Shown here one piece after another: positions 57,199-64,000 of a stretch of 64,000 nucleotides of DNA. The stretch is from contig JAHIRF010000009.1 in NCBI GenBank assembly GCA_018818785.1, positions 186,001-250,000 of the forward strand, read 5' to 3'. This DNA is from Thermoplasmatota archaeon. GTDB taxonomy: Archaea; Thermoplasmatota; Thermoplasmata; UBA10834. Each line of letters starts with the position of its first letter. Position 1 is the stretch's first letter. Made by a program: the position numbers and the translations under genes. The notes under the pieces are model-generated. The model saw nothing but the letters and a program-made list of their open reading frames with translations, searched no databases and had not been told where the DNA came from.

Positions 57199-57594
57199 TT
57201 GACGATTTTGAAGAAGAAGCCATTCTCCGGCGCTCCGGACTCGGAGCAGAAGGAGATGATTGGAGCAGAACAATATATTGATCTCACTGAGATGGTGTTC
57301 GAGGACGAGGGATTGATGGATTCTGATGGTGCCAAGACACTTGTCAAGGTGGGAGAGATGTTCCGATATGAGGATTTGTCAAGCCTGACGAGTCAGGTCT
57401 ATGCCGGGCACATAGTCATCATAGACTACACCTCGATTGCCAATGACGACCTGACAATGAAACGCCTCACAGCCGAGCTGAAGAACGTCTCTCGAGACGT
57501 CGGTGGGGATGTGGCTGGTGTCGGTAAGAACCTGCTCATGGCGACTCCGCGCGGAGTCAAGATCGACCGGAATAAGATTCGTGGCGGCTTCTGA
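57199..57594 (+). CDS. sepF: Archaeal SepF cell-division protein
   Basis: This 131-residue SepF homologue is the membrane anchor of FtsZ in archaea. The N-terminal MTILKKKPF is a short amphipathic membrane-targeting stretch; an acidic linker follows, and the C-terminal alpha/beta domain includes VKVGEMFRYEDLSSLTSQVYAGHIVIIDY and GKNLLMATPRGVKI. TTG 57199 has AGAGGGA upstream, and CTTTATATCC (57154-57163) is a well-placed TATA box. ftsZ is not in the window. A KaiC-like gene lies convergently downstream. Confidence 0.93.
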   Translation: MTILKKKPFSGAPDSEQKEMIGAEQYIDLTEMVFEDEGLMDSDGAKTLVKVGEMFRYEDLSSLTSQVYAGHIVIIDYTSIANDDLTMKRLTAELKNVSRDVGGDVAGVGKNLLMATPRGVKIDRNKIRGGF

Positions 57595-58616: not shown

Positions 58617-59927
58617 GTGGTCGAATACAAGATAATCCGGGATTCGGTACATGGTAGCATCAAGGTCGACGGTTGTTTCTTGCCGCTAGCGTCGACACCA
58701 GAGCTTCAGAGATTGCACAATATCCACCAGCTCGGCCTAGCATACCTCGTCTATCCTGGTGCCAATCACACGCGTTTCGAGCACTCGCTGGGAACATTCC
58801 ATGTGGCTGGACGGATATGTTCGTCCCTCAACCTGGACCGTATCGAATCGCTCATGGTCCAAGCTGCAGCGCTTCTGCATGACATTGGTCATCTTCCCTA
58901 TTCACATACATTCGAGATGGTCCTCCACGAACAGTTCGGTGTTGACCACGCCGAGATATCCCGGCGGCTCATTCGTGGGGAGGATTCCGTCCTTTCCGAT
59001 GAGGAGCGGTCCATCCTCGGCAAGCATGCGTCAGTTCCTGAAGCGTTGGAGGCGATGTCGCTCAACCCAAAGGATGTGGCAGGTCTGTTGGATGGCCAGC
59101 ACGCATTGAAGCAATCTTCGCGCACTCTCGAGAAACACGAATCACAGGCTCACTTCAATACAAAGCGTTACCTTTCACAGATTGTCAGTGGAACAGTAGA
59201 TTCCGACCAGCTCGACTACCTCGTACGAGATGCACATTACACCGGGGTAGCTTACGGCGTGATAGACATCGACCGGCTCGTCGAGACCTTCGACATATAC
59301 AATGGCGATCTGGTGATCGATAAGAGCGGCCTGAGCGCGGTCGAGGGCATGCTGGTCGCGCGAGCTCTCATGTTTTCGTCTGTCTACTACCACAAGACCG
59401 TGAGGATACCGGAGCTCATGCTCGCGAAAGCGGTGGAACTCTTGGGTAAGGACGCAATCGATCATATACATCGGATGACGGATGCTGGATTGCTCGCATA
59501 TCTGGAGTCGCAGGGTGGATATTCACGCGAGATAGCGACCTGTCTCAAGTATCGGAAACTGTACAAGCGCGCCTATGCGATGGCTGTCACGGACGTGTGT
59601 GATGAGGATTGGTTGAAGATAGATGAACTGGGCAACGTTGGACGACGCAGAGCTGTCGAGGCGGAGATAGCTCGAAGGGCTGGGATCCCATCTGGCAATG
59701 TGATAATGGATGTTCCTTCAACCGAACTCCCCCTCACAGAGCCGCGGATATCCCTAATGGATGTCCGCATCCTTGACGGCAAGCGTGTGCGACTCCTGCC
59801 CAGGATGAGTTCGATCTCCTCCTCGCTGCAATTCCGAAGGGCTCATGACTGGGCAGTCATGGTGGCGTGTCCTGAGAAGGACAAGGCGAAAGTGTCCAAA
59901 GCTGCGCAGAAAGTGCTCGGCCTCTAA
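58617..59927 (+). CDS. HD-domain phosphohydrolase (dNTPase/SAMHD1-like)
   Basis: This 436-residue HD hydrolase of the dGTPase/SAMHD1-like superfamily opens [14 protein letters not shown], and the metal-binding HD motif includes [32 protein letters not shown] and later [16 protein letters not shown], all intact. Such proteins hydrolyse nucleotide phosphates; the precise substrate is unknown. The frame is open from 58425, but a TATA box (CATTATATC, 58587-58595) about 27 bases before GTG 58617 indicates a leaderless transcript starting with that GTG (GTG 58605 is another option). The stop overlaps the convergent rtcB by 4 bases. Confidence 0.88.
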
Positions 59928-61378
59928 CCCTTCATCACGCCGATCGGTCGAAGACGGGCTACCAGCCTCGATATGCCCGCACCATCGGCCACGCGGACCA
60001 CGTCGTCCACATTCTTATAGGCTCCAGGCGCTTCCTCGATGATGCCTTCCTTCGAGGCGGCTCTGATGTACACCCCTCGGTCCTCGAGCTCTTGGATCAC
60101 TCCTTTCGATGTGAACTTCCTTGTCGCAGCGCTCCTGGACATCAACCTACCAGCCCCGTGGCATGTCGACCCGAATGTCTCGGCCATAGCCTGTGCCGTG
60201 CCCGCGAGGACATAGCTCGAGCTTCCCATGTCTCCTGGAATAAGAACTGGCTGCCCGAATGACCTGTACTTCGCAGGCACTTCGTCTCTACTGCTATCGA
60301 AAGCCCTGGTAGCTCCCTTGCGGTGGACATATACCATTTTTCGCAGTCCATCGATCTGATGCTCCTCCAGCTTGCATATGTTGTGGGCGACATCATAGAC
60401 GCATCTCATCCCCATATCCTCCGCGCTCCTGCCCAGGGATGTCTCGAACGATTCCCTGAGCCAGTGGAGTATGAGCTGCCGGTTCGCCCAAGCGTAGTTC
60501 GCGGCTGCACTCATGGCCGCGAAGCAATCCCGTCCCTCCTGCGAGTTCACGGGGGCACATGCTAGCTGCCTATCTGGAACCACGATTTTGTATTTCCTGA
60601 TCGCATTCTCCATCACTCGGATGTAATCGCTTGCGATCTGGTGCCCGCATCCTCTGGAGCCTGAGTGTATGCTGATCATGATCTGGTCAATGGAATCGAT
60701 TCCGAAGCATCTGGCTGCCTGTTCATCGAAGATCTGGTCGACCCTCTGTATCTCGAGGAAGTGGTTGCCTCCCCCCAGCGTCCCCAGTTGGGGCGCACCC
60801 CTCTGTTTCGCCTTCTGATCGACCTTCGATGAGTCGGCGGTCTTCATGCAGCCGTTCTCTTCGCTGGTCTCGATATCCTCTTGCCATCCGTAACCCTGAG
60901 ACACCGCCCATTTTGCACCATTGTCTAGGACGTCATCTATCTGACTGCCCGTCAGTCGCAGCTTCCCCTTCTCGCCGACGCCTGATGGGACATTGTCGAA
61001 GATAGTGTCTATGAGGTTCTTCCTCTTGTCTCGGATTTCCTCGAACCTTAGATCCGTTCTGACGAGCTTGACACCACAATTGATATCGTATCCTATGCCT
61101 CCAGGTGATATCACGCCCGTCTCAGAATCGAATGCCGCGACCCCGCCGATAGGGAACCCATACCCCCAATGAATATCCGGCATGGCGAGGGAATTGCCTA
61201 CGATCCCTGGTAGACAGGCCACATTCGCAGCCTGCTCCAGTGCATTGTCAGCGGTCACGGATTTTATCAGCTTATCATCCGAGAATATGATCGCGGAGGT
61301 TGACATGCACTGCTTGAAAGTCTTGGGGATTTCGTACCTGAACTCATCTATCTTGATTATTGGTCCCGTCCAGGGCAT
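59924..61378 (-). CDS. rtcB: RtcB RNA-splicing ligase
   Basis: This 484-residue RtcB is the GTP- and manganese-dependent ligase that joins tRNA exon halves after intron removal in archaea. Conserved parts include [17 protein letters not shown], the metal Cys in [20 protein letters not shown], the [11 protein letters not shown] loop, HRKGATRAF and the C-terminal guanylated His in [18 protein letters not shown] lies 6 bases before ATG 61378, with TTAATATAC (61412-61420) as TATA box. No internal intein is present, although RtcB often carries one. Confidence 0.96.
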
Positions 61379-61545: not shown

Positions 61546-61651
61546 TGGACCGCACTTACAGCCATATTGATTCCAGTTCAGACTGGCATGCATCGACCTC
61601 CCGTTCCAAGGGGGGTACTTTGAAGATTACAATTGATCGAGGTGATGGGGA

Positions 61652-64000
61652 TTGTCCGAAGAACAAGAGATACATTGTCCGTTGTGCGGTAAGAAAGTGC
61701 CTTCTGATGCGGACAAGTGCCCCTCCTGTTCCACGCAGATTGAGACCATAATGGCCAAACGTAATCTGGAACGGGTCATAGAGCGAAGGGTGATGCGTAG
61801 GGTCAAGAAAGCTCAGAAGGATGAGCTCATGACTCCAGAAGTCCCGAATGCGCCGATCCCTGAGGTCAAGGTATCCTGTCCTGGATGTGGTATGGATCTT
61901 GTTGGTTCTGAGGTGAAGTGTCCTCGATGTGGAGTACCTCTTGGGACTGGAGGAGAGATGATCGAGTGCCCTGAATGCGGTGCTCAGATGGCTGTCGGGA
62001 TTTCATCGTGTCCCAGCTGTGGGGTCGGGTTCGAAGAGCCCGTGGGAGAATCCGCGGCAGCACCTGATGTCGGAGCCGAGGCGGTTGTCGCACCGGTCGA
62101 AGGGCCGGAAGCCATCTCGACGGACGAGCCCGAACCTGTTGTTGCCGAGGCGGCGCCAGGCGCAGTCACCGCGGTGCCATACGAGACATCGTCGGGTGGC
62201 CGAGGATTGACGAACGGTCGGGGTGCGATAAACGGGACGGGTCTCGTCAATGGGACGGGAATGATAAACGGGACAGGCCTGGTCAATGGAACGGGGATGA
62301 TAAACGGCAACAAGACCGAACCGCACCCACCATCATCATCCCGACGGCGGCCTAGAGGCATCGCGAGATGGCAGTTCCTTGCAGTACTAGTCGCCCTCGT
62401 TATCATCATCCCGACATTCATCTACATATCATACGCGAAGGACTCGGGACCTTATGAGATAGACGGTGATTTCGGAGACTGGGACGATTCGAATCTGTAC
62501 TCCATGACCACTCTCACATCCACACCTCTCACATCCATAGACGGCTGGTCCGTAGGGGTCGATGGCACCCGCATTTTCTTCTATGTCTCCGCATCAAATG
62601 ACATCATGTCCACCACTGCGGTGGAGAGCATATTCCTATTCGTGGACTCCGACGGGAACGATGATACTGGATATTCGGTCGAAGGAATTGGCGCAGACTA
62701 CTTCCTCGAAGTCGATGGCTGGAATGACAGTGTCCAATCGTCATCCTTGTCGCACTACGACATCAACGGGGACCAATACGATTGGAGTTCCTGGGTGAAC
62801 CACGGCGGGGTGGCTCATCGGCTCAATGGTCATGAGCTGGAAGCGGGAGCCGATCTGCAGATTGCGCTATCGGAGAGCGCTTCCTTCGTGCTCTACTCGC
62901 AGGATCAGCTTGAGAGGTCTGCCGTCAGCAATCAGGTGCCGATATCCGGAGGCGTTCTCATCGTGACTCAGGAATTGTCATCCTCTGTTTCGCTATCGGG
63001 CATACTGCCCCAGTCATCTTCGGCTGCTCTATTGACGCTTACATTCGAGTGCGAGGGTGCAGATGGCGTGGTCGAGCAGGTGACACCCGTGTATACGGGT
63101 ATCTCTGCACCTTCAGCATCGATCGCGTCATTCTCTCTATCCGCCGGTGAGACACATGTGGAGCACATATATGTGAACGCGACCGCGCTGTCTGACGGAC
63201 ATTTCGTGTCCGCGATGGTGACAGACGATGCCATATCGAGCTCGTTCTCCAAGGTGATAGTGAACGGATATGCTGCGAGGGCATACGTGGGATCTGCGCC
63301 ATCAGTTGTGTACATCGACGGTGCGTTCGGGGACTGGTACCTGAGGACCGCATCCGATGTGGACACAATCCCGATCGTGAACCCCAATATCGATGTGACT
63401 GAAGTCGGGGTCTTCAACACGACGTCTTCTTCATCATTTTACATTAAAGTCGATGGCGAGATGTGCGCAGGGGCATACGTGCCTGCGCTGCGTGGTAAGC
63501 CTGTCCCCGGAAGTGGTTCGGTCGTTCCATCTGAAAGAAGGACTGCCGAGGACATCCTCCGGATATACATCGACAGTGATCTGTCCGCCTCCACTGGATA
63601 CCTCATGTCTGTCGAATCTAAGGTGATCGGCGCGGATTACATGATCGAGATCCGAGGGCTCTTCGGCGAGATAAACTCCAAGTCGGTCTTCCGTTACATG
63701 TCTAACAGCTGGTCGACAGTCAGTGCGACCGTGAATGCTGCGATGGATTCCCAACGACTTGAGGTCGGTGTGCTCGCATCCGTCATCAATGGTGGCGAAG
63801 GACTCGATTTCATCATCGAGACGACCGATTGGAACCATAGACAGGATATCGTAGGTCTCGACTCCGCGACGATGCTCGCGTTGACGGGTGGTATCGCACT
63901 CACTGCAGGCACGAAGAGCTGGGTAGTCCAATCGTCAATTGGCTCTGCTGCGACGGCCATGTCCTATCAACGCAAGCTGTTCTACGACGGCACCAACTTC
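61652..64000 (+). CDS. Membrane protein with three zinc ribbons, Asn-Gly repeat linker and large external domain (3' truncated)
   Basis: The frame is open from TTG 61652 (GAGGTGAT 6 bases upstream) to the window end, giving 783 residues. Three CxxC-CxxC zinc ribbons lie at residues 9-26, 76-93 and 106-123, followed by an acidic Pro/Ala-rich linker, then a hexapeptide-type repeat of Asn-Gly-Thr-Gly character (about 185-220), an Arg-rich stop-transfer RRRPRG and one transmembrane helix (about 241-261). The outside part is beta-rich and has two copies of an IDGxFGDW motif (near 267 and 551), like CBM9/DOMON-type sandwich domains. The topology has the zinc ribbons inside and the large domain outside. 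Function is unknown. Confidence 0.85.
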   Translation, partial: MSEEQEIHCPLCGKKVPSDADKCPSCSTQIETIMAKRNLERVIERRVMRRVKKAQKDELMTPEVPNAPIPEVKVSCPGCGMDLVGSEVKCPRCGVPLGTGGEMIECPECGAQMAVGISSCPSCGVGFEEPVGESAAAPDVGAEAVVAPVEGPEAISTDEPEPVVAEAAPGAVTAVPYETSSGGRGLTNGRGAINGTGLVNGTGMINGTGLVNGTGMINGNKTEPHPPSSSRRRPRGIARWQFLAVLVALVIIIPTFIYISYAKDSGPYEIDGDFGDWDDSNLYSMTTLTSTPLTSIDGWSVGVDGTRIFFYVSASNDIMSTTAVESIFLFVDSDGNDDTGYSVEGIGADYFLEVDGWNDSVQSSSLSHYDINGDQYDWSSWVNHGGVAHRLNGHELEAGADLQIALSESASFVLYSQDQLERSAVSNQVPISGGVLIVTQELSSSVSLSGILPQSSSAALLTLTFECEGADGVVEQVTPVYTGISAPSASIASFSLSAGETHVEHIYVNATALSDGHFVSAMVTDDAISSSFSKVIVNGYAARAYVGSAPSVVYIDGAFGDWYLRTASDVDTIPIVNPNIDVTEVGVFNTTSSSSFYIKVDGEMCAGAYVPALRGKPVPGSGSVVPSERRTAEDILRIYIDSDLSASTGYLMSVESKVIGADYMIEIRGLFGEINSKSVFRYMSNSWSTVSATVNAAMDSQRLEVGVLASVINGGEGLDFIIETTDWNHRQDIVGLDSATMLALTGGIALTAGTKSWVVQSSIGSAATAMSYQRKLFYDGTNF
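62204..62311 (+). repeat. In-frame tandem repeat encoding the Asn-Gly linker
   Basis: A 36-base unit (encoding GLVNGTGMINGT) is present about twice, preceded by partial and diverged copies; at the protein level the period is six residues with Asn-Gly at fixed positions. Third-position differences between copies (GGG/GGA, GTC/GTC, ACG/ACA) show that the copies have been kept by selection on protein rather than being freshly duplicated. Confidence 0.85.

Follow-up and report, generated by a model that had tools for sequence, protein, structure and literature searches.

At the downstream end of the analyzed DNA (a 64,000-nucleotide stretch of a Thermoplasmatota genome, hereafter the window) lies a gene whose product pairs a conserved Asn-Gly repeat, predicted to be cytoplasmic, with a PEF-type sorting signal at the opposite end. 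Proteins with a cytoplasmic repeat at one end and a C-terminal sorting signal at the other form a widespread Thermoplasmatota class that is apparently undescribed; the component parts are of known kinds, and it is the repeat and the two-ended pairing that appear undescribed. The architecture, the topology bias, the conservation, the two-ended pairing, and the co-distribution reported below were computed directly. We give an even chance to the reading that the protein is a double-anchored, probably sugar-binding member of this class, whose repeat acts from the cytoplasm as a tail for placement or clustering, in combination with anchoring by an archaeosortase; for the job of the repeat taken alone, a placement or clustering tail is a tentative proposal.

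Domain layout and orientation of the protein

The window corresponds to positions 186001 to 250000 of contig C5 in a genome of 1.97 Mb assembled in 12 contigs. It cuts the main gene (Table 1), which is why the earlier note missed the operon partners, the sorting signal of PEF type at the C terminus, and the propeller. Contig C5 continues beyond the stop codon of this gene to position 253098. Orthologs hold a GAGGTG-type site and a TTG codon at the equivalent place, ahead of the first zinc ribbon. Because this placement is kept, a start lying 3' of the ribbons, which the earlier note had named as incompatible with its reading, is very unlikely. A signal peptide placing the ribbons outside, named there as well, was also looked for, and none was found ahead of the zinc ribbons in the main protein.

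Table 1. Features of the main gene, its product, and two neighboring genes. Positions refer to the window; domain folds and the membrane helix are predictions.
Feature	Residues	Window position	Strand	Remarks
SepF		57199..57594	+	Kept in gene neighborhood
RtcB, divergent neighbor		59924..61378	-	Conserved
Ribosome-binding site GAGGTGAT		61639..61646	+	5 nt upstream of TTG; GAGGTG-type site before TTG in orthologs too
Main gene, cut at window end		61652..64000	+	TTG start at 61652; full ORF 1168 aa, stop at G000:C5:251158
Zinc ribbon 1	9-26	61676..61729	+	CxxC...CxxC; four Cys invariant in 12 orthologs
Zinc ribbon 2	76-93	61877..61930	+	DZR 34 bits, cut-off 27.3
Zinc ribbon 3	106-123	61967..62020	+	CxxC...CxxC; Cys invariant in 12 orthologs
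Acidic Pro/Ala-rich linker	125-183	62024..62200	+	Fast-evolving
Asn-Gly repeat GLTNGRGAINGTGLVNGTGMINGTGLVNGTGMINGN	185-220	62204..62311	+	Units G-x-[TVI]-N-G-x
Basic pre-membrane stretch RRRPRG...AR		62312..62365	+	N side of helix more positive (75/75 proteins)
Transmembrane signal-anchor helix	239-261	62366..62434	+	Then ~900 external residues
External domain 1, CBM9-type fold	265-432	62444..62947	+	7nwn Z 11.7, rmsd 3.2, 144 aligned
External domain 2, Ig/Fn3-like	433-551	62948..63304	+	Z 7-9
External domain 3, CBM9/CBM74-like	551-746	63302..63889	+	7uww Z 11.3, rmsd 3.0, 159 aligned
Beta-propeller start	about 748-1136	63893..64000	+	Continues past window; then IPEFS motif, TM helix, basic tail

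The elements that the earlier note had listed, namely, three ribbons, an acidic linker, an NG repeat, an arginine stretch (RRRPR), one helix, and two IDGxFGDW motifs, are all present in the sequence. They are not there by chance: across 12 orthologs (43-54% identity), the cysteines of the three ribbons (12/12) never vary, nor do three of the NG pairs or the majority of positions in the two IDGxFGDW motifs. These motifs read IDGDFGDW (residues 270 to 277, within external domain 1) and IDGAFGDW (residues 555 to 562, within external domain 3). The ribbon match in Table 1 is to the double zinc ribbon family (PF12773), and its cut-off is the Pfam gathering threshold.

Around the helix, the mean charge is +4.0 on the N side and -3.6 on the C side, with N above C in 75/75 repeat proteins. 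Because the flanking charges are more positive on the N side, the repeat is predicted to be cytoplasmic, and the sequence supports an N-in protein with ribbons and repeat inside and the large part outside. Together with the lack of a signal peptide before the ribbons, this charge bias upholds the transmembrane layout proposed earlier. A comparable layout occurs in the TcaA/YvbJ-type membrane proteins of Firmicutes, which also combine a cytoplasmic zinc ribbon, one helix, and a large outside part. However, these proteins have no NG repeat and their outside domains differ, and the TcaA model (NF053815) scores the main protein at 10.4 bits, far under its cut-off of 550.

The folds assigned to the outside part come from structure models with a pLDDT of 89 for the window part and 88 for the C-terminal part, the latter, and with it the propeller fold, being taken from a same-genus ortholog (L044) and not from the source protein. 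Domain calls in the window part rest on a second structural aligner, plain Foldseek whole-chain matches being weak. External domains 1 and 3 share their fold with CBM9 modules (7nwn, 1i82) and with the CBM74 region of Sas6 (7uww), although at only 11-13% identity. The propeller resembles in fold the CylK propeller (Z 31), PLL/PHL lectins (Z 27-28 for PLL), and GH33-type sialidases, with Z 26-31 for the best matches overall, but identity to these proteins is 9-14% and there is no evidence of catalysis here. Among sequence profiles, the CBM9 family (PF06452) gave weak matches in 4/35 members (best E value, 0.006) and none in the main protein, and the BNR Asp-box profile reached 13.1 bits in the main protein against a cut-off of 27. 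The modeled CBM9-like and lectin/sialidase-type folds agree with the binding-type module that had been suspected outside, and they suggest that the outside domains probably bind a sugar-coated surface.

Conservation and spread of the repeat

The earlier note had suggested that the repeat may be a flexible spacer. According to this reading, it would be a mere hydrophilic stretch that keeps the ribbons off the membrane and whose sequence drifts by repeat slippage, and it would benefit from the low complexity of the sequence, from the variation in copy number between orthologs (about 3 to 8), and from the fact that NG favors turns. What argues against it is that the repeat is much more conserved than the true linker alongside. 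Between congeners (ortholog L044), the alignable NG repeat differs at 7%/7%/63% of codon positions 1/2/3, whereas the linker differs at 37/47/74% and the ectodomain at 35/28/62%; relative to ortholog L045 the repeat differs at 22/11/61%. A caveat on these figures is that aligning repeats favors matching units. Synonymous diversity and codon choice inside the repeats are close to those elsewhere in the gene, and since the repeat codons are nearly as varied as those outside, the units are not products of recent DNA copying. The substitution pattern indicates that the repeat is maintained at the protein level and that the neighboring linker is not. Likewise, the unit G-x-[TVI]-N stays constant across families although the codons differ, and no upstream zinc ribbon was detected in 29/75 proteins, which may therefore lack anything for a spacer to keep at a distance; in many ribbon-less relatives the repeat makes up the bulk of the cytoplasmic part. 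We therefore consider a mere spacer unlikely, and the earlier suggestion is not supported on this point.

The earlier note also mentioned such repeats in further Thermoplasmata proteins, and this was borne out on a large scale. A homology search yielded matches in 55/60 relatives, many of which begin at the first repeat unit, without zinc ribbons. To avoid homology bias, the survey of distribution used DNA patterns alone: a strict hexad pattern occurred in 11/155 genomes across the phylum and a looser one in 78/150 relatives, while a reversed-pattern control gave almost zero. Of 118 repeat clusters, 114 have a membrane helix no more than 80 residues further on, compared with 6.7% for random positions in window ORFs, and in two single-contig genomes 24/24 canonical clusters found by DNA pattern precede a helix. 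Of the four clusters without one, two are cut off at contig ends, one lies in a short spurious frame, and one is an early block of a multi-block repeat. In viral contigs (IMG/VR) used as a control, NG-rich hexads were never canonical, and 3/96 lay near a hydrophobic stretch; outside Thermoplasmatota, the repeat was absent from the two sets examined, viruses and plasmids. No Pfam family, PDB sequence, plasmid, or open-access publication matching or naming the repeat was found.

Across 75 distinct proteins, the unit is G-[LMR...]-[TVI]-N, sometimes extended by G-x, at a spacing of 4 or 6. We defined the class by the repeat, a transmembrane helix within 80 amino acids, N-in charge, and a PEF-type C terminus, and the main protein shows each of these features. 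The source genome encodes a second repeat protein (G000:C3:76320-78086), with the unit GLTN and without zinc ribbons. In the single-contig genomes G044 and G034, (GLTN)n blocks are separated by KRKRRG-type basic spacers (G044:C1, G034:C1; L324-L352), in about 10 and about 15 proteins, respectively.

The C-terminal sorting signal and archaeosortase

The recovered remainder of the gene ends in an anchor, as the earlier note had thought worth checking: the C terminus (IPEFS...RHRSR) consists of a PEF motif, a transmembrane helix, and a basic tail, and PEF is invariant in 12 orthologs. The same combination ends 58/69 repeat proteins with a readable C terminus versus 19/468 other ORFs, in loci that were fetched by homology or via the repeat. 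Most of the remaining 11/69 repeat proteins look truncated, frame-shifted, or masked, and where an ORF from these loci ends in PEF but has no counted repeat, it is mostly a fragment of a repeat protein.

An archaeosortase-like gene is present in the source genome at C12:351534, with 39.6 bits for TIGR04178 (cut-off, 23). Its score for archaeosortase C (TIGR03762) was 41.4 bits and did not reach the cut-off of 100; the PEF-CTERM model (TIGR03024) gave no match in the main protein and 19.9 bits in one ortholog (cut-off, 23). The exosortase/archaeosortase family (PF09721) was found in 34/60 genomes. Scoring the repeat as present in a genome with two or more pattern matches, we found that the genomes at least 90% complete divide into 14 with both, 0 with the repeat only, 2 with the archaeosortase only, and 15 with neither (Fisher P = 5e-7, not tree-corrected). 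Counted by family, the sole way in which kinship was handled in this comparison, the figures are 12/1/2/5 (P = 0.007). The 10 repeat-bearing genomes without an archaeosortase-family match are all less than 90% complete. Near-complete genomes of families f6, f9, f10, f18, and f20, which belong to the same class of archaea, have neither the archaeosortase family nor the repeat, single stray matches aside.

The main protein thus resembles PEF-CTERM/archaeosortase C proteins in its C-terminal PEF motif, transmembrane helix, and basic tail and in the archaeosortase-like gene of its genome. It differs from them in having a long cytoplasmic domain with a repeat and an uncleaved-looking signal anchor, and in HMM scores that lie under the curated cut-offs. 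Judged from these sequence features, it is most likely a substrate of an ArtC-like archaeosortase.

Such a pairing of ends invites another explanation, in which the repeat lengthens the n-region of an export signal and acts during translocation only, by slowing or routing it, with no further task once the protein is exported; the helix might even be cleaved. The repeat always lies directly ahead of the first helix, together with basic residues, and SYA after the helix of the main protein could be a signal-peptidase site. Moreover, in Gram-positive surface proteins, YSIRK-type signal peptides pair with a C-terminal LPXTG sorting signal, so that there, too, an N-terminal element and a sorting signal share one surface protein; the sequences are unrelated, though, and the present case is archaeal, with a long cytoplasmic repeat and another sorting enzyme. 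However, the SYA site is not kept in orthologs, the helix is long, aromatic-flanked, and anchor-like, and the conserved upstream zinc-ribbon domains would be wasted, all of which makes a pure export signal doubtful.

Under the preferred reading of a placement or clustering tail, the protein would work as follows, where the binding of sugars, the archaeosortase step, the docking of partners, and what the repeat does are inferred. The N terminus would remain inside, with the zinc ribbons leading into the G-x-[TVI]-N-(G-x) repeat next to the membrane; the signal-anchor helix would span the membrane and expose the CBM9-like, Ig-like, CBM9/CBM74-like, and propeller domains; and the PEF-type signal would lead to archaeosortase processing and anchoring. 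As a multivalent tail, the repeat might, by self-contact or through a shared adaptor, gather or position proteins for export and archaeosortase processing. Nucleoporins carry FG/GLFG repeats, which offer an analogy only: both are short G-L-x repeats forming a probably disordered multivalent tail, but the archaeal repeat has no Phe, is non-homologous, and is membrane-proximal.

It is tempting to speculate further that archaeosortase-anchored surface proteins carry in the repeat a dedicated cytoplasmic code for placement and clustering. The repeat would then be the undescribed N-terminal half of an archaeal sorting pathway, comparable to YSIRK with LPXTG in Gram-positive bacteria, and across Thermoplasmatota a single genome would use it for as many as a dozen or more large surface proteins; this is possible, and we hold it with some reserve. 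The odd repeat of one gene leads to a rule for the phylum, in which a conserved repeat in the cytoplasm goes with a signal of archaeosortase type at the opposite end. Should the repeat steer or cluster surface proteins, it would offer a way into the surface organization of these mostly uncultured archaea and a sorting system with two ends that can be tested; mechanism aside, the class is recognizable for annotation. A statement in PMC12448462 describes the order Thermoplasmatales as being without an S-layer.

Neighboring genes and readings of lower probability

In the family, the gene order is SepF, a KaiC-like ATPase, an HD hydrolase, RtcB, the main gene, a zinc-ribbon/Lys-tail gene, and a second zinc-ribbon gene. 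SepF is the FtsZ anchor in cell division. Both zinc-ribbon genes lie downstream of the main gene in 12/12 ortholog loci holding that stretch. In most of these loci the ribbons of the zinc-ribbon/Lys-tail protein are 73-87% identical, its basic tail carries a net charge of +2 to +28, and its gene is single copy per genome and limited to two families. Across the taxonomic order, the ribbons of this protein (L002:9225-10046, with a long Lys-rich tail) are 60-87% identical, and it is far better conserved than its neighbor. Paralogs elsewhere carry ribbons related to both downstream proteins, fused N-terminally to their own repeat and helix, and these fusions hint at a Rosetta-stone link between the main protein and the two zinc-ribbon proteins. 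We propose that the zinc ribbons offer soluble partners a docking platform that is optional in the class, candidates here being the co-encoded zinc-ribbon/Lys-tail protein and the second zinc-ribbon protein. In a sister family, the zinc-ribbon/Lys-tail gene adjoins RtcB and the main gene is absent. The partnership is therefore not obligatory, and a strict dependence on the Lys-tail protein is less likely.

The same genes bear on the idea of a signaling receptor, in which ligand binding outside would alter how the internal zinc ribbons contact the Lys-tail protein or nucleic acid. Lectin-like outside folds, a co-encoded Lys-rich zinc-ribbon protein, and the fusion of related ribbons in paralogs would all suit a receptor, but there is no catalytic or known signaling domain, a single helix with a flexible repeat is poor at transmitting conformational change, and the sister family has the Lys-tail gene without the main gene; we rate this reading as quite improbable. 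An external N-glycosylated stalk in reversed topology, to which the NGT sequons in most units of the main-protein family might point, is highly improbable, given that the charge bias places the repeat inside in all 75 proteins, that no signal peptide precedes the ribbons, that 12 conserved zinc cysteines suit the cytosol, and that units outside this family are mostly NGL, NGN, or NGR. N-glycosylation of the repeat was rejected, since families other than that of the main protein do not retain NG[ST].

Two further observations concern the main gene in other genomes. In G006 (L012/L054) and G013 (L017/L071), it contains a single in-frame TAG, which may reflect read-through, a pseudogene, or a sequencing error; pyrrolysine is known in Thermoplasmatota. 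Finally, ORFs of 6300-6800 amino acids (G041:C27, G058:C35) hold stretches homologous to the N-terminal half and the ectodomain of the main protein.
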